DNA of 53,207 nt from Beijerinckiaceae bacterium. Its GTDB lineage: Bacteria > Pseudomonadota > Alphaproteobacteria > Rhizobiales > Beijerinckiaceae. Positions 28,749-41,418 of this stretch are shown here, in pieces. Every line of letters begins with the position of its first letter. Position 1 is the first letter of the stretch. The stretch lies in contig CANJVX010000019.1 in assembly GCA_947478405.1 (NCBI GenBank), forward strand, positions 1-53,207. Direction: 5' to 3'. The notes under the pieces were generated by a model. That model did not search any database and was not told where the DNA came from. It was given only the letters and a program-made list of their open reading frames with translations. A program made the translations under genes and the position numbers.

Positions 28749-29819
28749 ATGAATAGCTTAATCAAACTCGCTGCAGCGGTCGTTGCTTGTGTGGGTCTGG
28801 CGAGCAGCGCGGGGGCTGCCGAAAAGCTAAAAGTCGGCTTCGTTTACGTGGGCCCCATCGGCGACCACGGCTATTCCTATCAGCATGAGCAGGGACGTCT
28901 GGCCCTGCAAAAGGCTTTAGGCGACAAGATCGAGACGACCTTCCTCGAAAACGTGCCGGAAAATGACAGCGAGCGTTCCATCGAGCAGCTTGCCCGCGCT
29001 GGTCACAAGTTGATCTTCACGACTTCTTTCGGCTTCATGGAACCGACGCTGCGCGTGGCCCGCAAATATCCGAACCTGCGGTTCGAACATGCCACCGGCT
29101 ACAAGCGCGCCGACAATGTCGCGACCTATTCGGCCCGGTTCTATGAAGGCCGCTATGTACAGGGCGTGATTGCCGGCAAGGTCACCAAGACCAATACGGT
29201 CGGCTATATCGCAGCCTATCCGATCCCCGAAGTGATCGGCGGCATCAATGCCTTCTATCTCGGCGCCAAGTCGGTCAATCCGAACATCAAGATCAAGATC
29301 GTCTGGGCCAACACTTGGTATGATCCCGGCAAGGAAGCGGAAGCCGCCAAGGCTCTGCTGGCGCAGGGCGCCGACATTCTTGCCCAGCACACAGATTCAG
29401 CCGCCCCCATGCAGGAAGCCCAAAAGGCCGGTAAATTCGCCTTCGGCCAGGCCTCTGACATGATCAAGTTCGGCCCGAAGGCCCAGCTCACCGCCACGAC
29501 CAACAATTGGGCGGGCTATTACATCGAGCGCACCCAGCTCGCGCTGGACGGCAAGTGGAAGACCGGCGACGTTTGGGGCGGCATCGGCGCTAAAATGATC
29601 ATCATGGCGCCCTTCACAAATATGCAGGCTGACGTGACGGCACTGGCCGAAAAAACTATTGTCGAAATCAGCTCAGGCGCGCTCTTGCCCTTTGCCTGCC
29701 CGGTCGCTGATCAGGCTGGCAAGACAGTCGAATGCAAGGGCGGCGAGGGCCTCTCAGACGAGCAGATCCTCAGCATGAACTGGTATGTTCAGGGCATCGA
29801 GGACAAGGTGCCGCAATAG
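28749..29819 (+). CDS. BMP-family (PnrA-like) ABC transporter substrate-binding protein, orphan
   Basis: The 356-residue protein has a Sec signal peptide (M-N-S-L-I-K-L-A-A-A-V-V-A, cleavage near A-G-A-A) and then the BMP/PnrA fold: K-V-G-F-V-Y-V-G-P-I-G-D-H-G-Y-S near 29-44 and D-S-A-A-P near 218. Characterised relatives bind nucleosides or purines and feed an ABC importer. There is no lipobox cysteine, so it is a soluble periplasmic protein. No permease or ATPase gene follows; the next gene is a TauD-type dioxygenase 128 bp away. The start is the ATG at 28749 with GGCAGG upstream; an upstream TTG in frame lies inside a terminator-like hairpin. Confidence 0.9.
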   Translation: MNSLIKLAAAVVACVGLASSAGAAEKLKVGFVYVGPIGDHGYSYQHEQGRLALQKALGDKIETTFLENVPENDSERSIEQLARAGHKLIFTTSFGFMEPTLRVARKYPNLRFEHATGYKRADNVATYSARFYEGRYVQGVIAGKVTKTNTVGYIAAYPIPEVIGGINAFYLGAKSVNPNIKIKIVWANTWYDPGKEAEAAKALLAQGADILAQHTDSAAPMQEAQKAGKFAFGQASDMIKFGPKAQLTATTNNWAGYYIERTQLALDGKWKTGDVWGGIGAKMIIMAPFTNMQADVTALAEKTIVEISSGALLPFACPVADQAGKTVECKGGEGLSDEQILSMNWYVQGIEDKVPQ

Positions 29820-29947
29820 CAATGGCTTAGAACTGGATACCGGCCTTGTCTTTGGGCTGGTCAAAGAGTGCGCCGGGTTGCAAGCAAGGCTGCGCCTCGC
29901 TAACCTGATCCTCAGGCCAATAAGAATCCGGTCAACGGGAGGAAATT

Positions 29948-30769
29948 ATGACAGTTTCGGTGAAGCCCCTCGACGCACCTCTTGGCGCGGAGATTGTCGG
30001 GCTCGACGTGCGCAACATCACGCCCGAAGATTCCAAGACCATTCTGGACGCCTTCAACCAATATCATGTGCTCGTCGTCCACGGGCCGACCATCAATGAC
30101 GATGAACTCGTTGAGTTCGGCAAGGTGTTCGGGCATATCGAAAAGGCCCGCAAGAAGTCGCCTCTGTCGCACCGCGACGATATTATGGTGATCTCCAACA
30201 TCCGCGAAAACGGCGAGCTGGTTGGCTCCCTTCCCGATGGCGAGATGGATTTCCATTTTGATCGCATCCATCAGGTCCAGCCCTGCAAGGGCGCGGCGCT
30301 ACATGGTCTGGAAATCCCCTCGGAGGGTGGCGACACCTGCTTTGCCAATATGGTGCGCGCTTATGAGACGCTGCCCGAGGCGACGAAAAAGCGCATTGAA
30401 GGCCTGAAGGCGCTCAACACTTTCACCTATGGCGCGACCAAGCCGGATGGCAAGAATGAACTCGGCCCCCATGCCATTCATCCCATTGTGCGGCGCATTC
30501 CAGAAACCGGCAAAAAGTCTCTCTATGTCTGCCGCCTGATGACGGACCATATTGTCGACATGCCAGCTGACGAAAGCCGCGCGCTGATCAACGAACTCTG
30601 CGATCACATTGAAAACACGGGCCTGATTTACGCGCATCAGTGGAAAGTTGGCGACATTATCGTCTGGGACAATCGCTGCACCAGCCATGCGCGCACCGAC
30701 TTCTCCGATAAGGAACGCCGCCTCATGAAGCGCGTCACCATCGGCGATACGGTGCCCCCGCTTCAATAA
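29948..30769 (+). CDS. TauD/TfdA family Fe(II)/2-oxoglutarate-dependent dioxygenase
   Basis: The 273-residue enzyme has the iron-binding facial triad of the family: H-x-D at about 103/105 (F-H-F-D) and the distal His at about 247 (T-S-H-A-R-T). R-R-L-M-K-R near the C-terminus contains the usual 2-oxoglutarate-binding arginine. Family members hydroxylate sulfonates such as taurine, aryloxyalkanoates, sulfate esters and others, so the substrate is open. GGGAGG precedes the ATG. It has its own strong terminator, so it is a separate unit from the Mo hydroxylase/Sox run that begins about 160 bp downstream, though the two may be functionally linked. Confidence 0.9.
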   Translation: MTVSVKPLDAPLGAEIVGLDVRNITPEDSKTILDAFNQYHVLVVHGPTINDDELVEFGKVFGHIEKARKKSPLSHRDDIMVISNIRENGELVGSLPDGEMDFHFDRIHQVQPCKGAALHGLEIPSEGGDTCFANMVRAYETLPEATKKRIEGLKALNTFTYGATKPDGKNELGPHAIHPIVRRIPETGKKSLYVCRLMTDHIVDMPADESRALINELCDHIENTGLIYAHQWKVGDIIVWDNRCTSHARTDFSDKERRLMKRVTIGDTVPPLQ

Positions 30770-30796
30770 GCTTCACAATTCCGTTTAGGGAAAAAC

Positions 30797-30826
30797 ACGC
30801 GCCCGGTTTTCCGGGCGCGTATTTTT
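30797..30826 (+). terminator. Intrinsic terminator after the TauD-type gene
   Basis: A perfect 10-bp GC-rich stem (ACGCGCCCGG / CCGGGCGCGT) with a TTTT loop is followed by ATTTTT. This is a textbook Rho-independent terminator, 27 bp past the stop codon. Confidence 0.88.
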
Positions 30827-30926
30827 ATGGCGGAGTCCTGCAATTCTTGTAATCTCACGCCCAACGGTGGAGCCAGCCAGAACAATCGGCACTCCGCCTC
30901 CAAGCCAGCACCATCGGGAGGGATGA

Positions 30927-31415
30927 ATGGCGCGCCTGAACATCAACGGCAAAATTCATAATATTGACGTCGAGCCAGACACACCTTTGCTCTGGGCCAT
31001 CCGCGAACAGATCGGCCTGACCGGCACGAAATATGGCTGTGGCGTTGCTGCATGCGGTGCTTGCACCGTGCATGTAGATGGCGTGCCGACGCGCTCCTGC
31101 TCGCTCCCTGTGAGCTCTTTCACCGAGAAGCAGAAGATCGTGACGATTGAAGGTCTGTCCAAGACAGTCACTCACCCCATCCAGAAAGCTTGGCTTGAAC
31201 TCGATGTGCCCCAATGCGGCTATTGCCAGTCCGGCCAGATCATGGCCGCTGCCGCTTTGCTTGTGAAACATCCCGAGCCGACCGATGCGCAGATCAATGA
31301 AGAAATGACCAATATCTGCCGCTGCGGCACCTACAACCGCATTCGCGCGGGCGTGAAACTCGCCGCTAAAAATGCCAAGGGTGCGAAGAGCAACAACAAA
31401 GCGCAGCGCGCTTGA
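30927..31415 (+). CDS. 2Fe-2S subunit of an IorA-type molybdenum hydroxylase
   Basis: The 162-residue protein is the small subunit of a two-subunit molybdenum hydroxylase of the isoquinoline 1-oxidoreductase/aldehyde oxidase type. Cluster-binding cysteines are at about 38, 43, 46 and 58 (C-G-V-A-A-C-G-A-C) and at 97, 100, 131 and 133 (C-G-Y-C, C-R-C). It has no signal peptide although its partner has a Tat signal, so it is presumably exported folded and bound to that partner. GGGAGGG lies just upstream of the ATG. The lysine- and asparagine-rich tail ends 17 bp before the large subunit gene. It is the first gene of the run that ends with soxA. Confidence 0.9.
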
Positions 31416-31432
31416 ACACGGGGAGGAATGAC

Positions 31433-33604
31433 ATGACGATTGCGCAAAAACTTTCGCGTCGCGGCTTTCTTGCCGGCGCTGCTGTGGCCACAGGCGGACT
31501 CTCCATTGGCTTTCATATTCCCACCGCCGAAGCGGCTGTTGGTGACACGCCTGAAATCAATGCCTGGGTTGTTGTGAAACCAGACGACACGGTGGTGATC
31601 CGTGTGGCGCGTGTTGAAATGGGCCAAGGCACACTCACAGGCCTCGCCCAGCTTGTGGCCGAAGAACTCGATGCGGATTGGTCGAAAGTGACGACCGAAT
31701 ATCCGACACCGGGTCAGAATGTGGCGCGCAAGCGCATCTGGGGTGATTTCCAGACAGCCGGCTCGCGCGGTATTCGCGGTTCCGAAGATTACGTGCGCAA
31801 GGGCGGCGCTGCGGCGCGCCTCATGCTGATGCAGGCAGCTGCCAATCAGTGGAAAGTGCCGGTTGGCGAAGTCACCACCAGCAAAGGTGTGATCACGCAC
31901 AAGGCCTCGGGCCGCTCCTTGCGATATGGCAAAGTGGCGCTGGCAGCGGGCAAGCTCGAAGCGCCCAAGGATGTGAAGATCAAAGATCCGAAAGATTGGA
32001 CCATTGCTGGCAAGCCGCTGCCGCGTCTTGACACCAAAATGAAGCTCGATGGTTCGCAGATCTATTCCATCGATTTCAAAATGCCGGGCATGCTGAATGC
32101 TGCGATCAAGGAAACACCTGTGCCGGGTGGCAAGGTGAAAAGCTTTGATGCCGCCAAAGCCGAGAAAATGCGCGGCGTCAAAAAGGTTCTGGTGATTGAT
32201 GGCAATGCCGTCGTCGTCGTCGCCGACACATGGTACCGCGCCAAGACCGCGCTCGATGCGGTGAACATCGTCTGGGATGAAGGTGCGAACGCTTCTGTCT
32301 CGACAGCATCCATCAAGGCCATGCTGACCGAAGGTCTCGATGCCAAGCAGGCATTTGTCGGCAACAAGAAAGGCGATGTCGAAACCGCCATTGCCGGCGC
32401 GACCAAGAAAGTGGAAGCGGTCTATCGCTATCCCTACCAGCACCACATGACCATGGAGCCCATGAACGCCACGGCGCAATGGACACCTGAAAAGTGCTTG
32501 GTGTGGACCTCGACGCAAAATGCCGAAGCTGCCCTTGCCACAGCGGTGCCGGCCTCCGGCCTGCCGATTGAAAAATGCGATGTCATCCGCATGAATCTGG
32601 GCGGCGGTTTTGGTCGACGCTCCTCGAGCCACGACTATGTGCGCCAGACCGTGCTCGTTGCCAAGGAAATGCCCGGCACGCCTGTGAAACTCATCTGGTC
32701 ACGCGAGCAGGATGTCACGCATGGCACCTATCATCCCACCACTATGTGCAAGCTCACAGGTGCGCTGGATGACAAGGGCAATGTGGTGGGCCTGCATATG
32801 CGCATTTCCGGCCAGTCCATTCTGGCAGGACTTCGTCCCGAAGCGCTTGTCGAAGGGCGTGATCCCGGCACATTCCAGGGTCTCAATGCGCAGGGGCCGG
32901 AAGGTCAGTTTGGCTATGAGATTCCAAACCTGCTCGTTGATCATGCGATGCGCAACCCGCCCTTCCGTCCGGGTTTCTGGCGTGGTGTGAACAACAACCA
33001 GAACTCGATCTATCTGGAATGTTTCATCGATGAGATGGCGCATGCCGCCGGACAAGATCCGCTCGAATTCCGCCGCAAGATGATGAAGAATTATCCGAAA
33101 CATCTGGCGGTGCTGAATACGGTTGCGGAGAAATCGGGCTGGGGCAAACCCACAGCACCGGGCGTCTTCCGCGGCATTTCGCAACATATGGGCTATGGCT
33201 CTTATGTCGCCGCTGTGGCTGAAGTCTCGGTCAGCGACAAGGGTGCGTTGAAAATCCATCGCATTGTTGCTGCCACCGATTGCGGCCATGTCGTTAATCC
33301 GCAGCAAGTTGCAGCCCAGATCGAAGGTTCTTTTGCCTATGGTTTGTCCGCACTTCTCTACGGCGAAATGACAGTCAAGAATGGCCGCATGGAGCAGGAA
33401 AACTTCGACACTTACGAAGTGATGAAAATGGCCGACATGCCGCCAGTGGAATCCTACCCCGTTCCCTCGGGCGGATTCTGGGGCGGTGTGGGCGAACCGA
33501 CGATTTTCGTCGCAGCCCCTGCCGTGCTCAATGCGATCTTTGCCGCAACCGGCAAGCGCCTGCGCGATGTGCCGTTGAAAAACTTCGACCTGCGCAAGGC
33601 TTGA
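31433..33604 (+). CDS. Tat-exported molybdopterin-binding large subunit, IorB-type
   Basis: The 723-residue catalytic subunit opens with a Tat signal, L-S-R-R-G-F-L-A-G followed by a hydrophobic stretch and A-E-A-A, so it acts in the periplasm. It has the IorB arrangement of the Mo hydroxylase domains, with G-G-G-F-G-R-R in the middle and the catalytic-base motif G-V-G-E-P with Glu at about 688, so it should be active. The ATG at 31433 has GGGGAGGAA upstream; a TTG 21 bases earlier is not needed. No FAD subunit is encoded; such two-subunit enzymes usually pass electrons to a c-type cytochrome, and one follows after 3 bp. The substrate (aldehyde, N-heterocycle or other) is unknown. Confidence 0.9.
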   Translation: MTIAQKLSRRGFLAGAAVATGGLSIGFHIPTAEAAVGDTPEINAWVVVKPDDTVVIRVARVEMGQGTLTGLAQLVAEELDADWSKVTTEYPTPGQNVARKRIWGDFQTAGSRGIRGSEDYVRKGGAAARLMLMQAAANQWKVPVGEVTTSKGVITHKASGRSLRYGKVALAAGKLEAPKDVKIKDPKDWTIAGKPLPRLDTKMKLDGSQIYSIDFKMPGMLNAAIKETPVPGGKVKSFDAAKAEKMRGVKKVLVIDGNAVVVVADTWYRAKTALDAVNIVWDEGANASVSTASIKAMLTEGLDAKQAFVGNKKGDVETAIAGATKKVEAVYRYPYQHHMTMEPMNATAQWTPEKCLVWTSTQNAEAALATAVPASGLPIEKCDVIRMNLGGGFGRRSSSHDYVRQTVLVAKEMPGTPVKLIWSREQDVTHGTYHPTTMCKLTGALDDKGNVVGLHMRISGQSILAGLRPEALVEGRDPGTFQGLNAQGPEGQFGYEIPNLLVDHAMRNPPFRPGFWRGVNNNQNSIYLECFIDEMAHAAGQDPLEFRRKMMKNYPKHLAVLNTVAEKSGWGKPTAPGVFRGISQHMGYGSYVAAVAEVSVSDKGALKIHRIVAATDCGHVVNPQQVAAQIEGSFAYGLSALLYGEMTVKNGRMEQENFDTYEVMKMADMPPVESYPVPSGGFWGGVGEPTIFVAAPAVLNAIFAATGKRLRDVPLKNFDLRKA

Positions 33605-33607
33605 TCC

Positions 33608-33940
33608 ATGAAGGAGCGAAAGACATTTCGCTTCGCGACGACAACAGGAGGAGCGCTTACAGCGCTCCTCTTCTGCCTTTGCGGCTCTTCACTTGCAGCG
33701 CCGCAAGATGTTTCCCAATCGCCGCCCGGCGCATCGGCCTGCCTTAGCTGCCACGGTGCGGGCGAAACAGAACTACCCTCTTTAAAAGCTCTCTCCGCGC
33801 TCGACATTGAAACCGCCATGGATGCGTTTCGCACTGGCGCGCGCGACGCCACACTGATGAACCGCATCGCCAAAGGTTTCACGCCGGAAGAATCGCGCGC
33901 CATCGCGCAATGGCTTACCACACAGGGGCGCGCCCCATGA
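33608..33940 (+). CDS. Small exported mono-heme cytochrome c
   Basis: The 110-residue protein has an N-terminal signal (hydrophobic from about 14 to 30) and one heme-binding site C-L-S-C-H at about 45-49; a methionine in T-L-M-N-R may be the distal ligand. It fits the small cytochrome subunit of flavocytochrome c sulfide dehydrogenase (FccA), because the next gene is FccB-like and overlaps it by ATGA. It could equally be the electron acceptor of the Mo hydroxylase encoded 3 bp upstream. Its position between the two enzymes allows it to serve both. The family is clear; the partner is inferred. Confidence 0.85.
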   Translation: MKERKTFRFATTTGGALTALLFCLCGSSLAAPQDVSQSPPGASACLSCHGAGETELPSLKALSALDIETAMDAFRTGARDATLMNRIAKGFTPEESRAIAQWLTTQGRAP

Positions 33941-35184
33941 GCCTCACACGCCGCACACTTCTCGCCTCTTCCGCCGCAGCACTTGCCGCGCCCGCTTTGG
34001 CGCAGACGCAAGGCAAAATCGTGGTGATCGGTGGCGGCTTTGGCGGCGCCTCTGCCGCGCGCTTCCTTCACCGGATGGGGCTCGACGTCACGCTGATCGA
34101 GCCCAATGCGCAATATATTTCCTGCCCGTTTAGCAATTCAGTCATTGCGGGGCTTCGTGATCTGTCTCAGCAGACTTTCACTTATGCGGCATTGGAGCGC
34201 CAAGGCATTCGCTTGGTGCGGCAGATGGCGAGTCAAATCAACACGTCTGTGCGCCGCGTAACTTTGGCTGACGGCGTGATGATTTCTTATGATCGTCTCG
34301 TGCTTGCACCCGGCATTGATCTCAATTTCGAAGCCCTGCCCGGCTATGATGAAGCCGCCAGCAACCTCATGCCGCATGCGTGGAAAGCGGGTGCACAGAC
34401 CATGCTGTTGCGCCAGCAACTTGAAGCCATGGATGATGGCGGCACGGTCATTATTTCTGCGCCTGCCAATCCCTTCCGCTGCCCGCCCGGACCTTATGAA
34501 CGCGCCAGCCTCATTGCCTGGTATCTTAAAAACAACAAGCCGAGGTCGAAATTGCTGATCCTTGATTCCAAGGATGCTTTTTCGAAACAATCGCTCTTCA
34601 CTGCAGCGTGGAAAGAGATTTATGGCGACCGCGTCGAATGGATCGGTCTCTCGGGCGGCGGCAAAGTCACTGAGGTGAAGGCGAAAGAGAAAATCTTCGT
34701 CACCGAATTCGGCGAACATAAAGCAGATGTGGGCAATGTCATTCCTCCGCAACGCGCCGGAAAAATTGCGATCAGCGCAGGCATTGCCGACCAGACAGGC
34801 TGGTGCCCGATTGATCCTGTAACGTTTGAAGCCAAACTAGCGCCCCATATTCATGTCATCGGCGATGCTTGTGTGGGTGGCGGCATGCCGAAATCAGCTT
34901 TTTCGGCCAATGCACAAGCCAAAGCCTGTGCGCAAGCGGTGGCGGCTTTGTTGCGCGGAGACAATCCTGTCGAGCCCAAACTCGTCAACACCTGCTATTC
35001 GCTGGTGAAGCCTGACTATGGCATTTCGGTTGCAGGCGTTTATGCGCCAGCCAAAGGTCTGCTTGCCGATGTGCAAGGGGCTGGCGGCGTAAGTGCTGCC
35101 AATGCGCCTGCCAGCGTGCGTGCGGCTGAAGCGCAATATGCCGAAGGCTGGTACAAGACCATCACGCAGGAAGTGTTCGGCTGA
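33937..35184 (+). CDS. fccB: FccB-like flavoprotein (sulfide dehydrogenase flavoprotein subunit family)
   Basis: The 415-residue flavoprotein has a Tat signal (L-T-R-R-T-L-L-A-S) and the dinucleotide-binding motif G-G-G-F-G-G at about 32-37. It aligns well, from memory, with the Allochromatium FccB sequence. The covalent FAD cysteine is in Y-I-S-C-P-F-S-N (Cys at about 63), and the redox-active pair is in F-R-C-P-P-G-P-Y-E (about 182) and G-W-C-P-I-D (about 290), so all key residues are kept. Family members oxidise sulfide to sulfur, or act as SoxF to stimulate the Sox system. The start is the ATG overlapping the cytochrome stop; it overlaps soxX by one base. Confidence 0.9.
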   Translation: MSLTRRTLLASSAAALAAPALAQTQGKIVVIGGGFGGASAARFLHRMGLDVTLIEPNAQYISCPFSNSVIAGLRDLSQQTFTYAALERQGIRLVRQMASQINTSVRRVTLADGVMISYDRLVLAPGIDLNFEALPGYDEAASNLMPHAWKAGAQTMLLRQQLEAMDDGGTVIISAPANPFRCPPGPYERASLIAWYLKNNKPRSKLLILDSKDAFSKQSLFTAAWKEIYGDRVEWIGLSGGGKVTEVKAKEKIFVTEFGEHKADVGNVIPPQRAGKIAISAGIADQTGWCPIDPVTFEAKLAPHIHVIGDACVGGGMPKSAFSANAQAKACAQAVAALLRGDNPVEPKLVNTCYSLVKPDYGISVAGVYAPAKGLLADVQGAGGVSAANAPASVRAAEAQYAEGWYKTITQEVFG

Positions 35185-35633
35185 TGTGGCGCGTGTTGGG
35201 ATTACTGGCGGTGCTGGTGAGCTTTGACGCCACCGCGCAGACTCCTGTGCCCTATCGCATCGAGAATGGCGCCATTGCACAACCGCTCACGGGGGTGAAA
35301 GGCGATCCCGCCAAAGGCCGTGCCATTGTCGTCGAGCGACAAAAGGGCCTCTGCCTGCTCTGCCATTCCGGCCCCTTTCCGGAAGAGCGTTTTCAGGGCG
35401 ATCTCGCGCCAAGCCTTGTGGGCACAGGATCGCGCCTGAGCGAGGGCGAAATTCGCTTGCGCATGGTCGATAGCACCAAAGTGAATGAAAAAACGATCAT
35501 GCCGCCCTATTATAAGACCGAGGGGCTTGAGCGTGTCGCCGCCAATTACAAGGGCAAGACTTTGCTCTCGGCCCAAGAGATCGAAGATGTCATTGCCTTT
35601 CTCGTCAGCCTGAAAGACGACACGCAGAAATGA
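35184..35633 (+). CDS. soxX: SoxX, mono-heme c-type cytochrome of the Sox system
   Basis: SoxX pairs with SoxA to couple thiosulfate, or another sulfur substrate, to the carrier SoxYZ. The 149-residue protein has a Sec signal ending A-T-A-Q, heme site C-L-L-C-H at about 57-61 and a likely distal methionine in K-T-I-M-P-P-Y-Y at about 106, the usual SoxX pattern. It starts on the base that ends fccB (TGATG) and overlaps the SoxY gene by ATGA. Here soxX and soxA are separated by soxY and soxZ, an X-Y-Z-A order that also occurs in other bacteria. Confidence 0.92.
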   Translation: MWRVLGLLAVLVSFDATAQTPVPYRIENGAIAQPLTGVKGDPAKGRAIVVERQKGLCLLCHSGPFPEERFQGDLAPSLVGTGSRLSEGEIRLRMVDSTKVNEKTIMPPYYKTEGLERVAANYKGKTLLSAQEIEDVIAFLVSLKDDTQK

Positions 35634-36073
35634 ACACGACACGCCGCCAATTCTCTCTTCTGGCCGCAGGCGCAAGCTTCGCGCTGGTGGCGCCTGCGCG
35701 CGCCACACCTGACAGTATGAAGGCCTCCATTCAAGCCTTCACGGGCGGCAAGCCTGTGAAAGAGGGCCGCGTGAAATTCGACATTTCCCTGCTGGTCGAG
35801 AATGGCAATTCCGTGCCACTCAGCGTGCTGGTCGACAGCCCGATGACGAAGGACAATCACGTCACGCGCATCGGCATTTTCAACGAGAAGAACCCGCTGC
35901 CTGATGTGGCGATCTTCAATCTGACGCCACGCAGTGGGCGCGCACAAATTGCCACTCGCATGCGGCTCAACGACACGCAATTCATCACCGCTATCGCGGA
36001 AATGTCTGACGGGACTTATTTCAGCGCCAAAAGCGAAGTCATTGTCACCATGCCCGCTTGTGTGGAGGAATAG
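35630..36073 (+). CDS. SoxY-related carrier protein with variant C-terminal arm
   Basis: The 147-residue protein has a Tat signal (T-T-R-R-Q-F-S-L-L-A) and the SoxY immunoglobulin-like fold (V-K-F-D-I-S-L-L-V-E-N-G near 46-57). Canonical SoxY carries its sulfur cargo on the cysteine of a C-terminal G-G-C-G-G arm. This one ends V-T-M-P-A-C-V-E-E, so a cysteine is kept but the flexible glycines are gone and an acidic tail follows. I recall an NCBI family called SoxY-related AACIE arm protein that matches this ending. The cargo may therefore differ from classical thiosulfate intermediates. It is followed by soxZ after 2 bp. Confidence 0.88.
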   Translation: MNTTRRQFSLLAAGASFALVAPARATPDSMKASIQAFTGGKPVKEGRVKFDISLLVENGNSVPLSVLVDSPMTKDNHVTRIGIFNEKNPLPDVAIFNLTPRSGRAQIATRMRLNDTQFITAIAEMSDGTYFSAKSEVIVTMPACVEE

Positions 36074-36075
36074 AC

Positions 36076-36396
36076 ATGGCCCGCGCGCTCATCAATGTTC
36101 CGCAAAAGTCCAAGCGTGGCGAGATCATCGAGATCAAGACGCTGATGTCGCATCCGATGGAAACGGGCTTTCGTCCCGGCATGGATGGCCAGCTGATCCC
36201 GCGCGACATTATCGAGAAATTCGTCTGCACCTATAATGGCGAGGTGGTCTTTTCGGCGCAGCTTCATCCCGCCATCACAGCCAATCCCTTCATCTCTTTC
36301 ACAACCATTGCGACAGACAGCGGGACATTGGTTTTTTCCTGGACAGATAATAAGGGCGAGACGCAAGTGCAGACTGCGAGCATTCAAGTTGAATAG
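36076..36396 (+). CDS. soxZ: SoxZ, partner of the SoxY-type carrier
   Basis: The 106-residue protein matches SoxZ, the leaderless subunit that binds SoxY and is exported with it through the Tat system. R-G-E-I-I-E-I-K-T-L-M-S-H-P-M-E-T-G-F (in the first 35 residues) is the family signature. GGAGGAA before the ATG at 36076 fixes the start; an upstream ATG at 36058 lies within the SoxY gene. The last codons overlap the TTG start of soxA. Confidence 0.93.
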   Translation: MARALINVPQKSKRGEIIEIKTLMSHPMETGFRPGMDGQLIPRDIIEKFVCTYNGEVVFSAQLHPAITANPFISFTTIATDSGTLVFSWTDNKGETQVQTASIQVE

Positions 36397-37147
36397 GCTC
36401 GCCTATCTTGTTGTGATCGGCATAGCCCTGCCAGCCTTTGCGCAGGATGCGCGCAAATCCGGCTTTGATTTTATGGGGCCGGATACGCAGGCCATGCAGA
36501 AAGACGATCTCGCCAATCCGGGCATGCTGTCAGTGCTGGAGGGCGAGGCGCTCTGGAAAGCTAATGCTGGCACATCGCAAAAATCCTGCGCTTCCTGCCA
36601 TGATGATGCGACCCAAAGCATAAAAGGGGTCGCCGCACGCTACCCGGCTTTCGATGAGACGACACAAGCGCCACTCGATCTCGCAGGCCGCATCATTCAA
36701 TGCCGCACGGAGCGCCAAGGTGCCCCCGCGCCCCAGCGCGAAGGGCGCGAGTTGCTGGCACTCACCAGCTATGTCGCACATCAATCACGCGACCTACCCA
36801 TCGCACCCCCAAAAGACGCTCGCCTTGCCAGCACCCGCGCGCAGGGGGCCGCGCTTTATTCCACCCGCATGGGCCAGCTCAATTTCTCCTGCGCGCAATG
36901 TCACGATGACAATGCAGGCGGACATTTAGGCGCTGCCCCCATTCCCCAGGCCCATCCGACCGGTTACCCGCTCTATCGGCTGGAGTGGCAGGCGCTCGGC
37001 TCCCTCCAGCGGCGCTTTCGCAATTGCCTGTCGGGGATGCGGGCCGAGCCAATTGCGGCCGGCTCAAAGGAAGCCATCGCGCTCGAGCTCTTCCTGATGG
37101 AGCGAGCCGCCGGCATCCACCTCGAGACGCCCGCCGTTCGTCCCTGA
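36389..37147 (+). CDS. soxA: SoxA, diheme c-type cytochrome of the Sox system
   Basis: SoxA forms the active part of the SoxAX cytochrome. From a TTG at 36389, nested in the end of soxZ, the protein has 252 residues and a Sec signal (L-A-Y-L-V-V-I-G-I-A-L-P-A-F-A-Q). It has two heme motifs, C-A-S-C-H at about 67-71 and C-A-Q-C-H at about 168-172, so it is the diheme type. The cysteines expected as axial ligands are present at about 105 and 213; the latter, in F-R-N-C-L-S-G-M-R-A, corresponds to the persulfide-carrying active-site cysteine. The TTG start is inferred from the signal peptide; no ATG or GTG fits. Confidence 0.9.
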   Translation: MNRLAYLVVIGIALPAFAQDARKSGFDFMGPDTQAMQKDDLANPGMLSVLEGEALWKANAGTSQKSCASCHDDATQSIKGVAARYPAFDETTQAPLDLAGRIIQCRTERQGAPAPQREGRELLALTSYVAHQSRDLPIAPPKDARLASTRAQGAALYSTRMGQLNFSCAQCHDDNAGGHLGAAPIPQAHPTGYPLYRLEWQALGSLQRRFRNCLSGMRAEPIAAGSKEAIALELFLMERAAGIHLETPAVRP

Positions 37148-37252
37148 CATGGCGGGGACAAGTGCCTTGATTCTATTGGGTTGGATTAGACTTTCGGGTC
37201 AGTCTGTGGCAGTTTTTCCCCACGCAATCAAAAACGATAAGAGGAGACAGAC

Positions 37253-38488
37253 ATGCCCCATGATCCTGGCGAGAAGGACGGCGTCCAGCATTGGCACGAG
37301 CCGTCAGGCACCCGCAAAGCGGGCTTCGGCGAGTTCAAGAAACAGCCGACCCCCTATGATGCATGGATGGAAGCCGAAGGCATTCCGGTGTTCCGAGGGA
37401 TTGGCATCAGCAAGGTGCAGAATCTGCCCCTCTTCGACTGGAAGCGTCGTGGTGGCAAAGGCCATTTCATCCAGCTCTACGGCACCGAAACCAAATGGGG
37501 CTGCTATGTGATTGAAGTGCCACCGGGTGGCGCGCTCAATCCTGAAAAGCACATGTATGAGGAAATCTTCCTCGTCGTCGAAGGCCGCGGCACCACGGAA
37601 GTCTGGCAGGAAGGCGACAAGAAGAAGCTCACCTTCGAATGGCAGAAGGGTTCGATGTTCTCGATCCCGATGAACGCTTGGTATCGCCACGTCAATGCAA
37701 CGTCGGGCGGCGCTCTGCTGCTGGCCGGCAATACGGCACCGAATGTGCTGAACCAGCTCAACAATGCCGACGCGGTCTTCGACAATCCCTTCGTCTTCCG
37801 CGATCGCTTCTCGGGCGACGAAGATTTCTTCAAGCCCAAGGATGAGATCGAGCCCGATCCCGTGCGTGGCCTTGCCCAGCGCAGGACCAACTTCATTCCC
37901 GACGTGATCAATTGCGAATTGCCGCTCGATAACCGCCGCTCGGTCGGTTATCGCCGCGTCGAACCGGCGATGACCAACCACCAGTTTTATTTCTGGATCG
38001 GTCAGCACGAGAATGGCCGCTATTCCAAGGGCCATGCGCATACGTCCGCTGCTGTGCTCGTCTGCCTGAAGGGCAAGGGCTACACTTATTCATGGCCGGA
38101 AAAATGCGGCGAACGCCCGTGGGAAAACGGCATGGCCGATCAGGTCAACCGTCTCGATTACGAGCCCGTTGGTCTTGTGACCGCAGCACCGGGTGGCGCG
38201 CGCTGGTATCACCAGCATTTCTCGGTGTCGAAGGAAGACTTCCGCCTCTCCGCATGGTTTGGCCCGCACAATCCGGGGCGTGACCCCGGCGCTCCTGGCG
38301 AAAAGCACACAGATTATACGGCCATTGACGTCAATCAGGGTGGCACAGCCATTCCGTACTGGATGGAAGATCCGTATATCCGCAGCGAATACGAAGAAAC
38401 ATTACGCAAGAACGGCGTCGATTGCCGGATGGATGAAAAGTGGTACGTCAAGGCTGACGATGCCGATACAACCAAATCGGTGGTGTAA
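37253..38488 (+). CDS. Bicupin domain protein
   Basis: The 411-residue protein has two cupin domains and no signal peptide. The first (about 85-160) is degenerate, with K-H-M-Y-E-E where a metal-binding HxH-x4-E would be. The second (about 240-345) keeps G-H-A-H (His at about 261 and 263) and a later Y-H-Q-H-F, so it could bind one metal. AGAGGAG lies upstream of the ATG. Related proteins in databases are usually called cupin domain-containing, and I cannot name a reaction. It follows soxA by 105 bp on the same strand and precedes a strong terminator, so it may end the Mo hydroxylase/Sox transcript or be a separate gene. Confidence 0.82.
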   Translation: MPHDPGEKDGVQHWHEPSGTRKAGFGEFKKQPTPYDAWMEAEGIPVFRGIGISKVQNLPLFDWKRRGGKGHFIQLYGTETKWGCYVIEVPPGGALNPEKHMYEEIFLVVEGRGTTEVWQEGDKKKLTFEWQKGSMFSIPMNAWYRHVNATSGGALLLAGNTAPNVLNQLNNADAVFDNPFVFRDRFSGDEDFFKPKDEIEPDPVRGLAQRRTNFIPDVINCELPLDNRRSVGYRRVEPAMTNHQFYFWIGQHENGRYSKGHAHTSAAVLVCLKGKGYTYSWPEKCGERPWENGMADQVNRLDYEPVGLVTAAPGGARWYHQHFSVSKEDFRLSAWFGPHNPGRDPGAPGEKHTDYTAIDVNQGGTAIPYWMEDPYIRSEYEETLRKNGVDCRMDEKWYVKADDADTTKSVV

Positions 38489-38500
38489 GCCACACAAGAA

Positions 38501-38527
38501 AAAGGCCCCGGAAACGGGGCCTTTTTT
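38501..38527 (+). terminator. Intrinsic terminator after the bicupin gene
   Basis: A 9-bp stem (AAAGGCCCC / GGGGCCTTT) around GGAAAC runs into a run of T residues. It lies 12 bp past the bicupin stop and closes the rightward block that starts at 30.9 kb. Confidence 0.9.
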
Positions 38528-38539
38528 ATTTGTCCCGCT

Positions 38540-38627
38540 TCGTCATTGCGCGCCACAGGCGAAGCAACCCAGAAGCCGCACGCGTCGCCAATGGATTGCT
38601 TCGTCGCTACGCTCCTCGCAATGACGG
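38540..38627. repeat. Dispersed palindromic repeat, copy 2
   Basis: This element begins CGTCATTGCGCGCCACAGGC and ends CGCTACGCTCCTCGCAATGACG, the same end sequences as the repeat at 15431-15516, with a different centre. It lies between the bicupin terminator and the amidotransferase gene and overlaps the last codons of the latter. The arms are less well matched than in copy 1. Confidence 0.75.
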
Positions 38628-39380
38628 AGTACCATTGCGAAAAACGGTGAGCGCGCCAATCGGCAATTCGCTCCACACTTCATCGCGCGTCAACGGGTTG
38701 GAAGCGATCACCGCCACGCGATCCTTTGGGTTTGTCTCTTTGGAAAAATCCACGCGCAAATCTTCATCTACCAAGGTCGCAAAACCAAATGGTGCCTTGC
38801 GAACAATGTAGAAGAATTTCTTCGTGCAGAAAGCATAAAGCGAACGCCCGTCGCTGATCAGAATGTTGAACACACCAAGCTGCGCCAATTCCTGACACAG
38901 TTTTTCAAGAGCAACTTGCAATTGGGCATGGCTGGGGAGCTGTGGAAATTTTTTATGCAGGCGCCCGATGATCCAGCAAAAAGCATATTCGCTGTCAGTC
39001 GTCCCAATGGGGCGATAAAGGCCAAGCTTTTTTGCCTTTACGCCTTTGAGCTGGCCATTATGTGCGAAGGTGATCGCCCGCCCCCAGATTTCACGCGTGA
39101 ACGGGTGCGTATTTTCAAGTGCCACACGCCCACGATTGGCGCGACGCACATGGGCAATGACAGTTTCGCTCTTCAGCGGATAATCCCGCAACAGACGCGC
39201 AATTTCAGAATGGGCGGAGGGCTGCGGATCGTGGAAACAGCGCGCACCACGCCCTTCATAAAAGGCGATGCCCCAGCCGTCGCGGTGCGGCCCTGTCGCG
39301 CCGCCGCGGCGCGCCAGAGCTGCAAAGGAAAAGCGGATGTCGGTTGGGACATTCGCGTTCATGCCAAGAAGTTCACACAT
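38607..39380 (-). CDS. Class II glutamine amidotransferase (YafJ-like)
   Basis: The 257-residue protein is a stand-alone class II (Ntn-type) glutaminase domain. The start at 39380 is required because the catalytic Cys must be residue 2 (M-C-E-L-L-G-M-N). H-V-R-R-A-N-R-G and F-A-H-N-G-Q-L-K-G are the standard glutamine-site motifs. It resembles E. coli YafJ, whose acceptor substrate is unknown. The last codons (S-L-R-G-A and the stop) are read from the palindromic repeat, so the tail was probably created by repeat insertion. Confidence 0.9.
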   Translation of the reverse strand: MCELLGMNANVPTDIRFSFAALARRGGATGPHRDGWGIAFYEGRGARCFHDPQPSAHSEIARLLRDYPLKSETVIAHVRRANRGRVALENTHPFTREIWGRAITFAHNGQLKGVKAKKLGLYRPIGTTDSEYAFCWIIGRLHKKFPQLPSHAQLQVALEKLCQELAQLGVFNILISDGRSLYAFCTKKFFYIVRKAPFGFATLVDEDLRVDFSKETNPKDRVAVIASNPLTRDEVWSELPIGALTVFRNGTPSLRGA

Positions 39381-39456
39381 AGTCCCGCCTATAGCGCCAC
39401 CAAAGCGGCGGCACAATGGCTGCAATCACAAGAACAGGGGCAGGCTGAGCTTTAGC

Positions 39457-41418
39457 TCAGTCACCCTTGCGATGTTTTTTGAATTTCGGCTTGCCCTCGC
39501 CAGCCTTGAAAGGCTTGGCAAAGTCGCCCTGCGCAGGCTTGGCAAAGTCGCCTTTTGAAGCTTTGGCAAAATCCGGCTTGGGGCCTTTAGCAAAATCACC
39601 TCTGGGAGGCTTGGCAAACTCGCCCCGCGGTGGCTTGGCAAACTCGCCCCGCGGTGGCTTGGCAAAATCGCCTCGCGGTGGTTTGGCAAAATCGCCACGG
39701 GGGGGCTTGGAAAAGCCGCCTGGCTTGTTGTCGAATTTCTTCTTGAACGCGGGCTTGTCTTCCACCTGCGCGCCATCGGCACGGGAGAAGACCATATCCG
39801 CCTCGCCCTTGCGCGGCTTGCCTGGTGTCAGCATAGCCGCCGCAAAAGCCTCGGCCTGGTCCGACGAAACTTGAAATTTCGTTTCAAGGTCGAAAATGCG
39901 GATAGCGCCAATCGCATCGCGCGACACACCGCCACGCTTGCAGATGACTGGCAGAAGCCATTTCGGATCGGCGCTTTTGCGCCGACCAATGTCGATGCGA
40001 AACCACACACCTTCACCCTTGTGACGCATGGGTGCAGCTTCACGACGCTCACCGGTGGCTTCGCGGCGTGGTTCGTTGGGGCGCAACGGGCGCGGATCCT
40101 GGCGGAAGCCTGGATCGGTGATTTCTTCAGGCGCAGGCAGACGCGCGCGCCAGCTGCGCACGAGGGCTGCAGCAATATCTTCAGCGCTACGGCCTTCAAG
40201 AAGAGCACGCGCTACAGCCAATTCGTCTTCGGTGTTTTCTTCCTTGAAAAGATCATCTGCAAGCAGACGCTCGCGATCAAGCGCGCGGATATCATCGGCA
40301 GACGGAGGGCCGCTCCACTCGGGCACAAGCCCGGCATCAACCAAGAGGCGCTCAGCCTTCCGGCGACGCGAGACTGGCACCAGCAGTGCTGCAATCCCCT
40401 TGCGACCTGCACGACCCGTACGGCCGGAACGATGCTTCAGCACTTCGGAATCGTGGGGCAAATCAGCATGAATGACGAGGCTGAGATTGGGCAGATCAAT
40501 ACCGCGCGCCGCGACATCGGTCGCCACGCAAATACGCGCACGCCCATCACGCAAAGACTGCAACGCATGATTGCGCTCATTCTGGCTGAGTTCACCCGAT
40601 AGCGCCACAGCATTAAAGCCGCGCTCCATCAAGGCGGATTGCATATGACGCACGGCTTCACGCGTGTTCAGAAAGATGATGCAGCCGGCCGGATCGTGGT
40701 AGCGCAAGAGATTGACAGTGGCATGTTCGATTTCATGCGGAAGAACGCGAATGGCGCGATGTTCAATATCGGCATGGCCCTGTTCGCCCGCGCCCACTTC
40801 GATGCGCAAAGCATCGCGCTGGAAGTCGCGCGCCAATGTAACAATGCCCTTGGGCAATGTGGCCGAGAAGAGCAACGTGCGCTTTTCTGCCGGCATGGCT
40901 TTCAGAATATGTTCCAGATCGTCGCGAAAGCCGAGGTCGAGCATTTCATCAGCTTCATCAAGCACGACGGCACGGATAGCGGAGAGGTTGAGCGCACCTC
41001 GTTCAATGTGATCGCGCAAGCGGCCCGGTGTGCCAACAACAATATGCGCCCCTTGCTGGAGCGCACGACGCTCGCGGCTTGGATCCATGCCCCCGACACA
41101 GGATGCAATGCGCCCTCGTGCTTCACTATAGAGCCAGGACAATTCGCGATGGACCTGCAGCGCGAGTTCGCGCGTGGGCGCGACAACCAGCGCCAAAGGC
41201 GCGCTGACATAGCCAAAGATTTCGGCATCTCCGAGCAACGTGGGCGCAATGGCCAGACCATAGGCCACGGTCTTGCCCGATCCGGTTTGGGCGGACACCA
41301 GAAGATCGCGCGCTTGCGTGGCCTCTTCGAGAACAGCCAGCTGCACGGGGGTGGGTTCATTGTAATCACGCGCAGCAAGAGCGCGCGCGAGGCTCGGGGT
41401 CGTCACGGGAAAGGGCAA
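39457..41418 (-). CDS. DEAD-box RNA helicase with DbpA-type domain and repetitive tail
   Basis: The 653-residue protein has a full DEAD-box core: Q-motif P-T-P-V-Q at about 22-26, A-Q-T-G-S-G-K-T at 43-50, D-E-A-D at 154-157, S-A-T, and H-R-S-G-R-T-G-R-A-G-R in the second RecA domain. A DbpA-type RNA-binding domain follows (about 480-545). The last 87 residues are mostly eight-residue units of the type R-G-D-F-A-K-P-P and then a lysine-rich end, a basic disordered RNA-binding tail. The start is a TTG at 41418 with GAAGG six bases upstream; a GTG four codons later is an alternative. Likely role is ribosome assembly or cold-shock RNA remodelling (DeaD/CsdA-like). Confidence 0.92.
   Translation of the reverse strand: MPFPVTTPSLARALAARDYNEPTPVQLAVLEEATQARDLLVSAQTGSGKTVAYGLAIAPTLLGDAEIFGYVSAPLALVVAPTRELALQVHRELSWLYSEARGRIASCVGGMDPSRERRALQQGAHIVVGTPGRLRDHIERGALNLSAIRAVVLDEADEMLDLGFRDDLEHILKAMPAEKRTLLFSATLPKGIVTLARDFQRDALRIEVGAGEQGHADIEHRAIRVLPHEIEHATVNLLRYHDPAGCIIFLNTREAVRHMQSALMERGFNAVALSGELSQNERNHALQSLRDGRARICVATDVAARGIDLPNLSLVIHADLPHDSEVLKHRSGRTGRAGRKGIAALLVPVSRRRKAERLLVDAGLVPEWSGPPSADDIRALDRERLLADDLFKEENTEDELAVARALLEGRSAEDIAAALVRSWRARLPAPEEITDPGFRQDPRPLRPNEPRREATGERREAAPMRHKGEGVWFRIDIGRRKSADPKWLLPVICKRGGVSRDAIGAIRIFDLETKFQVSSDQAEAFAAAMLTPGKPRKGEADMVFSRADGAQVEDKPAFKKKFDNKPGGFSKPPRGDFAKPPRGDFAKPPRGEFAKPPRGEFAKPPRGDFAKGPKPDFAKASKGDFAKPAQGDFAKPFKAGEGKPKFKKHRKGD
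39508..39720. repeat. 24-bp tandem repeat encoding the helicase tail
   Basis: About eight units of 24 bp lie in the 3' part of the helicase gene. The middle four are nearly identical (CGCGGTGGCTTGGCAAA plus ACTCGCCC or a close variant) and the outer ones are more diverged. The period is a multiple of three, so gain or loss of units would keep the reading frame. Confidence 0.85.

Follow-up and report, generated by a model that had tools for sequence, protein, structure and literature searches.

Why should a molybdenum hydroxylase be encoded together with Sox-type sulfur oxidation proteins at a locus devoid of soxB? The question arises from a 53,207-nucleotide stretch of DNA of a Beijerinckiaceae bacterium (the window, meaning throughout the full stretch), in which eight plus-strand open reading frames (ORFs), iorA-iorB-cytc-fccB-soxX-soxY′-soxZ-soxA, occupy positions 30927-37147. 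The original prediction made from this DNA had joined these genes into one unit that ties a two-subunit molybdenum hydroxylase to a reduced Sox system. Judged by gene order and covariation across related loci, the eight genes are a conserved, co-inherited unit, and our searches indicate that this unit is kept in many genomes without detectable SoxB. Our best reading, held with a little less than even confidence, is that they encode a self-contained periplasmic oxidation unit that would use the carrier principle of Sox without SoxB and in which the molybdenum hydroxylase would be an integral part, with a substrate and a chemistry that we infer from the components.

Layout, protein families and conserved residues

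The largest intergenic gap of the unit is 17 bp, between iorA and iorB, and the remaining junctions are of 3 bp at most or overlap, so that the predicted run of eight genes in the same direction, with gaps of at most 17 bp, is borne out by the ORF coordinates. The hairpin and T-run upstream of iorA agree with the further claim that a terminator isolates the unit from the preceding gene. The features are as follows.

30797..30820, plus strand: terminator-like hairpin with T-run (10 pairs, 9 of them G-C; tail ATTTTTATGG), between a TauD-like gene and iorA
30927..31415, plus strand: iorA, [2Fe-2S] subunit of molybdenum hydroxylase (PF00111/PF01799)
31433..33604, plus strand: iorB, molybdopterin subunit exported by twin-arginine translocation (Tat) (MoCoBD_1/2; TIGR01409 above cut-off; 8gy3_C, E=1.6e-74)
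33608..33940, plus strand: cytc, small monoheme cytochrome c (CxxCH; PF13442 at 25.4 bits, slightly below the cut-off of 27)
33937..35184, plus strand: fccB, flavoprotein of flavocytochrome c sulfide dehydrogenase (PF21706, PF09242; 5n1t_A, E=2.5e-137)
35184..35633, plus strand: soxX, monoheme cytochrome (TIGR04485 at 72.5 bits, cut-off 61; aligns with 2c1d_B and 1h31_B)
35630..36073, plus strand: soxY′, SoxY-related carrier with an AACIE-type arm, here PACVE (TIGR04487 at 187.2 bits, cut-off 172)
36076..36396, plus strand: soxZ, carrier partner (TIGR04490 at 99.6 bits, cut-off 76; PF08770)
36389..37147, plus strand: soxA, diheme cytochrome (TIGR04484 at 219.3 bits, cut-off 110; aligns with 1h31_A)

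The start codons of iorB, soxZ and soxA were checked: ATG 31433 was chosen for iorB (an alternative in-frame TTG at 31412 would overlap iorA), and TTG 36389 is our choice for soxA. The search queries began upstream of the reported starts by 2 residues for IorB, 1 for SoxZ and 13 for SoxA, and the first residue of the local queries was set to M.

Family searches confirmed the Tat-exported two-subunit hydroxylase (MoCoBD_1/2, TIGR01409, PF00111/PF01799) and the names given to the Sox and FccB proteins, except that the carrier is not a true SoxY: it passes the model TIGR04487, "SoxY-related AACIE arm protein", and remains below the cut-off of the true-SoxY model TIGR04488 (94.8 bits versus 125). 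The carrier cysteine is kept, but [A/P]-A-C-x-E stands in place of the Gly-Gly arm; the window's protein reads PACVE at this place and not the GGCGG of a true SoxY. By model and motif alike, the carrier has its own arm type. We then read these and other residues across 122 loci (including 12 repeats of the same place), with denominators that vary because local alignments miss some residues. The arm cysteine was found in 122 of the 122 carriers and a Glu at +2 in 117 of 119. The eight cysteines of IorA were invariant across the 87 loci read; IorB kept its Tat arginines (85/85) and the Glu of GVGEP (97/97), and aligned along its length with the aldehyde dehydrogenase large subunit of 8gy3, its best match among solved structures. 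The CxxCH of cytc was kept in the 74-75 loci read, the two conserved cysteines of FccB, also aligned with 5n1t_A, in 95/95 and 101/101, and the CxxCH and Met of SoxX in 116/116. SoxA retained both CxxCH motifs and a C-terminal cysteine relative to 1h31_A (Cys in 115 of 117 loci read), the latter being presumably the active-site heme ligand; the roles of the other conserved sites are likewise presumed. The ligand and catalytic residues checked are thus intact, as the original prediction had stated, and conserved. The small cytochrome is a probable electron partner of FccB.

Conservation and co-inheritance of the unit

To evaluate conservation, the carrier alone was used as bait in named genomes, one per species, and the best 80 of 527 matched relatives were kept as loci; the matches beyond these 80 need not be of this unit type. 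Because the loci were found by the carrier only, gene order was not selected for. Stretches from relatives, plasmids and other draws brought the total to 122 loci (110 distinct). In 78 of the distinct loci the sequence extends 6 kb or more upstream of soxY′: 53 named-genome loci, 22 other genome loci and 3 plasmids. Within 9 kb and on the same strand, these 78 loci encode IorA (77), IorB (77), SoxX (77), SoxZ (78), SoxA (77) and FccB (68). The order iorA-iorB-soxX-soxY′-soxZ-soxA was observed in 76 of the 78, so that it is not unique to this strain. One of the two exceptions is L138, in which the contig ends after soxZ; in the other, L021, soxY′-soxZ-soxA abuts another gene, which we take to resemble purD. 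When present, fccB occupies its usual place in 63 loci, lies 5′ of iorA in 2 and 3′ of soxA in 3; in Burkholderiales loci it is mostly outside the run, or elsewhere nearby. Carriers among the best 80 of 527 matches include strains of Bradyrhizobium, Microvirga, Methylobacterium and Neorhizobium; eight of the 80 belong to Betaproteobacteria/Burkholderiales, where we presume their genera to fall, one is a Rokubacterium, one is labeled "Proteobacteria" and the remainder are Alphaproteobacteria. A plasmid megablast with positions 30000-38500 returned short matches only, in three records. Two plasmid records label their copies with the TIGR04487 name and a third uses SoxY.

In the 51 of the 80 loci in which all seven proteins are long enough, the pairwise distances of IorB show correlations of 0.82 with IorA, 0.83 with SoxY′, 0.82 with SoxZ, 0.82 with SoxA, 0.68 with SoxX and 0.51 with FccB, compared with a maximum of 0.31 for any protein pair in 200 shuffles, the correlations carrying species phylogeny uncorrected. 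As FccB is loosely correlated and 10 of the 78 loci have none within 9 kb, the core of the unit, by gene content and covariation, is IorAB, SoxXA and SoxY′Z, with FccB as a frequent accessory. A reciprocal scan with IorB, in which at most three candidates were scored per genome, found IorB with at least 60% identity in 23 of 289 class genomes (two partial), the next-best IorBs reaching 51% at most. Twenty-one of these 23 genomes also carry a SoxY of the AACIE layout; 19 are the genomes whose AACIE SoxY reaches at least 160 bits, and in two others (L227 and L228) the SoxY next to IorAB shares the layout but scores lower. In G136, IorAB is on one contig and fccB-soxXYZA on another, both retained; in G138, IorAB and the sox parts are on separate contigs.

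Divergent versions of the pairing were also observed. In the genus relatives L052 and L054-L056, a SoxYZ fusion precedes iorA and iorB, with an IorB 35-36% identical to that of the window. The strand opposite the fusion bears fccB and its cytochrome gene in L052, L053 and L055, and also soxX and soxA in L053 and L055; the L053 contig is cut before the place where iorAB would appear. IorBs of 35-38% identity again accompany SoxY and SoxZ in other class genomes (L236-L238). As divergent IorBs again adjoin SoxYZ carriers, the pairing of molybdenum hydroxylase and SoxYZ, on this comparison, either predates this one family or has recurred outside it. A larger cytochrome gene is also found near the SoxYZ fusion in L055 and L056. 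Near soxA of L053, a gene resembling TauE/SafE-type exporters (L053:5255-6103) might point to export of a sulfur anion.

These data bear on whether the genes are merely co-regulated neighbors, an account that we regard as possible, if rather unlikely. IorAB would then be a plain periplasmic aldehyde dehydrogenase and FccAB, SoxXA and SoxYZ would treat sulfide or thiols separately, one parent compound yielding both an aldehyde and reduced sulfur and the cytochrome c pool being shared. Such separate substrates would equally produce one operon, the best solved match of IorB is indeed an aldehyde dehydrogenase subunit, and FccB resembles an ordinary sulfide dehydrogenase. However, in its distances IorB is tied to SoxY′, SoxZ and SoxA no less tightly than to IorA; no part is absent more often than FccB, the most obvious sulfide enzyme; and the pairing of IorAB with SoxYZ recurs in divergent versions. 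Methanethiol oxidase, which would yield sulfide and formaldehyde together and so be a source of both products, does not co-occur with the unit either.

Consensus scans over 29000-39500 found terminator-like sites (13 versus 11.6 +/- 3.9 in shuffles) and promoter-like sites (6 versus 4.5 +/- 2.0) at chance level; a promoter and terminator belonging to the molybdenum genes alone thus gave no signal beyond chance, and, being at shuffle level, the scans are uninformative either way on a separate promoter for the sox genes. The hairpin at 30797-30820 is shared with the near relative L059, and L061 has a different inverted repeat there. A link to taurine or other sulfonates through the TauD-like neighbor was considered and dropped, that gene not being counted as a unit member, since the terminator-like hairpin lies between; among the fetched loci, its matches come from near relatives (74-98%) and otherwise, at 34-38% and in different places, from a few loci. 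We also abandoned the search for a substrate clue in flanking genes, because flank clustering over the 80 loci yielded no widely common extra gene, the largest non-operon cluster being present in 19 of the 80 at scattered places. On the 3′ side of soxA, window positions 37253-38485 encode a cupin-domain protein that is about 90-95% identical in most near relatives holding it; other genes split it from soxA in several of them, and it is not a unit member. Further on, a minus-strand ORF (39457-41418) that presumably encodes a DEAD-box-helicase-like protein has a C-terminal tail of repeated GDFAKPPR-type units.

Genomes with and without soxB

The original prediction had noted the absence of soxB and soxCD from the window and had left two options, a soxB located elsewhere or a different sulfur relay. 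Both are indeed absent from the window, and a search of the window's genome (3.03 Mb, 79 contigs, 95.08% complete) gave no soxB candidate. A soxC-like gene does lie elsewhere in it (G000:C32:16571-17812; 492.7 bits, cut-off 420), so that the genome holds a soxC-like gene without a detected soxB. Beside it on the same contig are genes for a small and a larger cytochrome (L168:9019-11900).

Among class genomes, with a line of our own set at 160 bits for carriers, 18 of the 19 carriers have no soxB above the cut-off and one (G164) has it. This line drops G169 (139.3 bits) and G096 (148.1 bits), which have a SoxY of the same layout beside IorAB; G096 has soxB and SoxC, and adding both genomes brings soxB to 2 of 21. 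More divergent, lower-scoring units (e.g., in G132, G307 and G123) are also below the line. Twenty-nine of the 37 genus genomes are carriers, a count that includes the contig-cut carriers G008 (149.3 bits) and G027; soxB above the cut-off is missing from 21 of them and present in 7, and G025, with a soxB fragment at a contig end, is outside both groups. Several genus genomes are incomplete, down to 58%; of the 14 genus carriers with a completeness of 95% or more, 10 have no soxB above the cut-off. The phylum-wide draw gave the opposite picture, with soxB in 11 of 15 carriers (window excluded; soxB was sought only in these 15, and G213 is shared with the class draw). The phylum result speaks against any simple rule that carriers never have soxB. 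A side observation concerns L187-L189, from three genomes of 1.7-2.1 Mb rated 100% complete, which keep iorAB-soxXYZA together with a separate soxB set; no fccB match was found in their fetched 19 kb.

Could the unit therefore serve ordinary thiosulfate oxidation, with a SoxB encoded elsewhere? The presence of soxB above the cut-off in 11 of 15 phylum-draw, 7 of 29 genus and 1 of 19 class carriers would favor such a role. Yet in these 19 genomes another SoxY-family match accompanies soxB. In the 11 phylum genomes, in G164 and in six of the seven genus genomes, it shares a contig with soxB at a distance of no more than about 2 kb; in the seventh, G020, only a soxB fragment adjoins it. In addition, most genus and class carriers, including the more complete genus genomes, have no soxB above the cut-off, and the arm of SoxY′ differs from that of true SoxY. 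We therefore consider this role very unlikely. A different relay is supported, because the unit is conserved beyond the strain and kept without soxB, because soxB sits by another SoxY, and because the arm family differs.

A related possibility is that IorAB replaces SoxCD, oxidizing SoxY′-bound sulfane sulfur as far as a sulfonate, with release by another hydrolase or by a thiol. SoxCD is likewise a molybdenum enzyme that acts on SoxY-bound sulfur, and 17 of the 19 class carriers have no SoxC above the cut-off. Against this, IorB is of the xanthine oxidase type, which hydroxylates carbon, and not of the sulfite oxidase type; the window's genome has a SoxC-like protein of its own, as do 9 (plus 3 partial) of the 21 soxB-less genus carriers, the window's included; and the acidic residue beside the arm cysteine would disfavor a sulfonate cargo. 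This replacement is improbable in our view. SoxC itself was considered as a regular partner of the unit and dropped, since it is above the cut-off in only 2 of the 19 class carriers and in the genus carriers just mentioned, counts that indicate that it is not a fixed partner. Several genus relatives have a SoxC-like protein of the kind found in the window's genome, and these mostly score below soxB-linked ones.

A possible mechanism and comparison with known systems

How, then, might the unit work? The SoxA cysteine and the arm cysteine point to the usual first step of Sox, in which a sulfur compound is oxidatively linked to the arm. In our best reading, SoxXA would link a reduced sulfur compound to the arm cysteine of SoxY′Z, probably a neutral organic thiol and not anionic thiosulfate; given the Glu near the arm cysteine, an anionic sulfonate is a less likely cargo as well. 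Xanthine-oxidase-type molybdenum enzymes oxidize aldehyde or heterocycle carbon using water. Taken with the aldehyde dehydrogenase that is the best solved match of IorB, this chemistry suggests as the simplest joint reading that IorAB oxidizes the carbon of a carrier-bound thiol. Periplasmic IorAB would thus oxidize the aldehyde-level carbon part of the cargo with oxygen from water and thereby move the cargo on, which in the thiosulfate pathway is the job of SoxB and SoxCD. FccB and the small cytochrome, where present, would oxidize sulfide or persulfide set free on the way, and all electrons would exit as reduced cytochrome c. Units that lack FccB and the small cytochrome have no cytochromes other than SoxX and SoxA, and SoxXA may therefore accept the electrons of IorAB as well. 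Aldehyde dehydrogenases of the Gluconobacter molybdenum type have a triheme cytochrome subunit, which SoxXA, with its three hemes, could possibly replace. The original prediction had suggested that the molybdenum enzyme supplies or processes the cargo; that it acts on SoxYZ or its cargo is also what we infer. The pathway class so outlined, in which an organic thiol would be bound by a swinging-arm carrier of Sox type and the carbon of this bound cargo oxidized, without SoxB, by a molybdenum enzyme of the xanthine oxidase type, is put forward tentatively, at a confidence well short of even. If true, it would represent a carrier-bound route of organosulfur oxidation across many, possibly hundreds of, mostly proteobacterial species.

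Several observations weigh against this interpretation. The organic-thiol cargo is suggested solely by the charge of the arm and the aldehyde dehydrogenase relative of IorB, and the contact between IorAB and SoxYZ is a prediction. The carriers that hold soxB in the genus and in the phylum draw count here, as cross-talk is possible in them, and so do the weaker, below-cut-off SoxB matches in 5 of the 18 class and 8 of the 21 genus carriers classed as soxB-less; 10 of 14 control genomes, of which E. coli is an example, give such matches too. The loose covariation of FccB (r ~0.5) with the other unit proteins, its absence within 9 kb of some carriers and the uncorrected species phylogeny in the distances belong to the same side. 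Two genomes found through IorB (62-63% identical to that of the window) depart from the full set: G115 (L229) has IorAB and SoxXA but neither a SoxYZ match in that stretch nor a TIGR04487 match anywhere in its genome, and G307 (L230) has IorAB alone at the locus, with a second, divergent unit elsewhere (L231). Finally, methanethiol oxidase (PF05694), the one particular source examined, was tried as a general source of substrate and rejected, being absent from the window's genome and above the cut-off in 2 of the 19 class carriers and 23 of the 289 class genomes overall.

The carrier might also serve the enzyme, SoxY′Z delivering or restoring the sulfido ligand of molybdenum, or shielding the enzyme from thiosulfate or sulfide. 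A precedent is found in the parts covered of a study of SoxYZ fusions located beside carbon-oxidizing dehydrogenases, in which protection of methanol dehydrogenase is proposed (PMC11237559). Such a service is highly improbable here, as an XdhC-type maturation protein is encoded in the window's genome and the conserved SoxA cysteine would be left unexplained. The same XdhC-type protein led us to drop the idea that missing molybdenum maturation calls for a sulfur donor.

How does the unit compare with known systems? Like the Sox system of Paracoccus type (SoxXA-SoxYZ-SoxB-SoxCD), it has SoxX, SoxZ and SoxA that score above the NCBIfam cut-offs and retain the heme ligands and the SoxA cysteine, and a SoxY-related carrier with an arm cysteine. 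It differs in having neither SoxB nor SoxCD, in its [AP]-A-C-x-E arm, and in the two molybdenum hydroxylase genes and, usually, FccB built into it. The NCBIfam model TIGR04487 covers SoxY′, which passes its cut-off with a cysteine-bearing AACIE-like arm, and names the carrier only. With molybdenum hydroxylases of the IorAB/AldFGH type (8gy3), the unit shares a Tat-exported MoCoBD subunit, a [2Fe-2S] subunit and the Glu of GVGEP; no flavin adenine dinucleotide (FAD) subunit of the molybdenum hydroxylase type was found among its proteins. AldFGH includes a triheme cytochrome c subunit, whereas the operon ORFs contain no triheme cytochrome gene and the hydroxylase is linked to SoxXAYZ instead. 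FccB has the FAD domain, FCSD_central, FCSD-flav_bind and both cysteines of flavocytochrome c sulfide dehydrogenase, whose activity it is predicted to have; unlike in that system, the window's fccB is embedded in a molybdenum hydroxylase/Sox unit, where it is not always present.

Our searches of the open full-text literature found no description of the whole molybdenum hydroxylase/Sox unit, subscription papers being mostly outside this search, and the eight-gene unit is apparently undescribed. The parts covered of PMC6382920 and PMC3623810 contain nothing on it, and a term search of the main text of PMC11237559 gave no match for xanthine, aldehyde, molybd- or flavocytochrome. The nearest precedent comes from SAR324 bins, for which the parts covered of the report describe a flavocytochrome c that has low-identity SoxY and SoxZ as its neighbors, with no further sox subunits recovered, and propose a novel mechanism with an incomplete Sox complex (PMC4782131). 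The FccB-SoxYZ part of the idea is therefore already voiced, as far as this part of the report goes. The SAR324 draft genomes also hold an isoquinoline 1-oxidoreductase, which the same parts place under aromatic degradation and do not link to sox (PMC4782131). As described there, the SAR324 system differs from the unit of the window in that no SoxXA is reported and the molybdenum enzyme is treated apart, while the window joins both.

Sox genes are often read as evidence of thiosulfate oxidation. Given a different carrier type and no detectable soxB in many genomes, those with soxXYZA of this other type would be misread as thiosulfate oxidizers. The unit also offers an opportunity to test whether a sulfur carrier can work together with a carbon-oxidizing molybdenum enzyme. 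A link between carbon and sulfur was suspected earlier from SoxYZ fusions next to alcohol dehydrogenases: the parts covered of that study describe divergent SoxYs and SoxYZ fusions beside pyrroloquinoline quinone (PQQ) alcohol/methanol dehydrogenases and propose roles in carbon metabolism (PMC11237559). Like the SoxYZ-S2/S4 fusions described there, the unit of the window ties a SoxYZ-type carrier to a carbon-oxidizing dehydrogenase; unlike them, it has separate soxY and soxZ genes and includes SoxXA.

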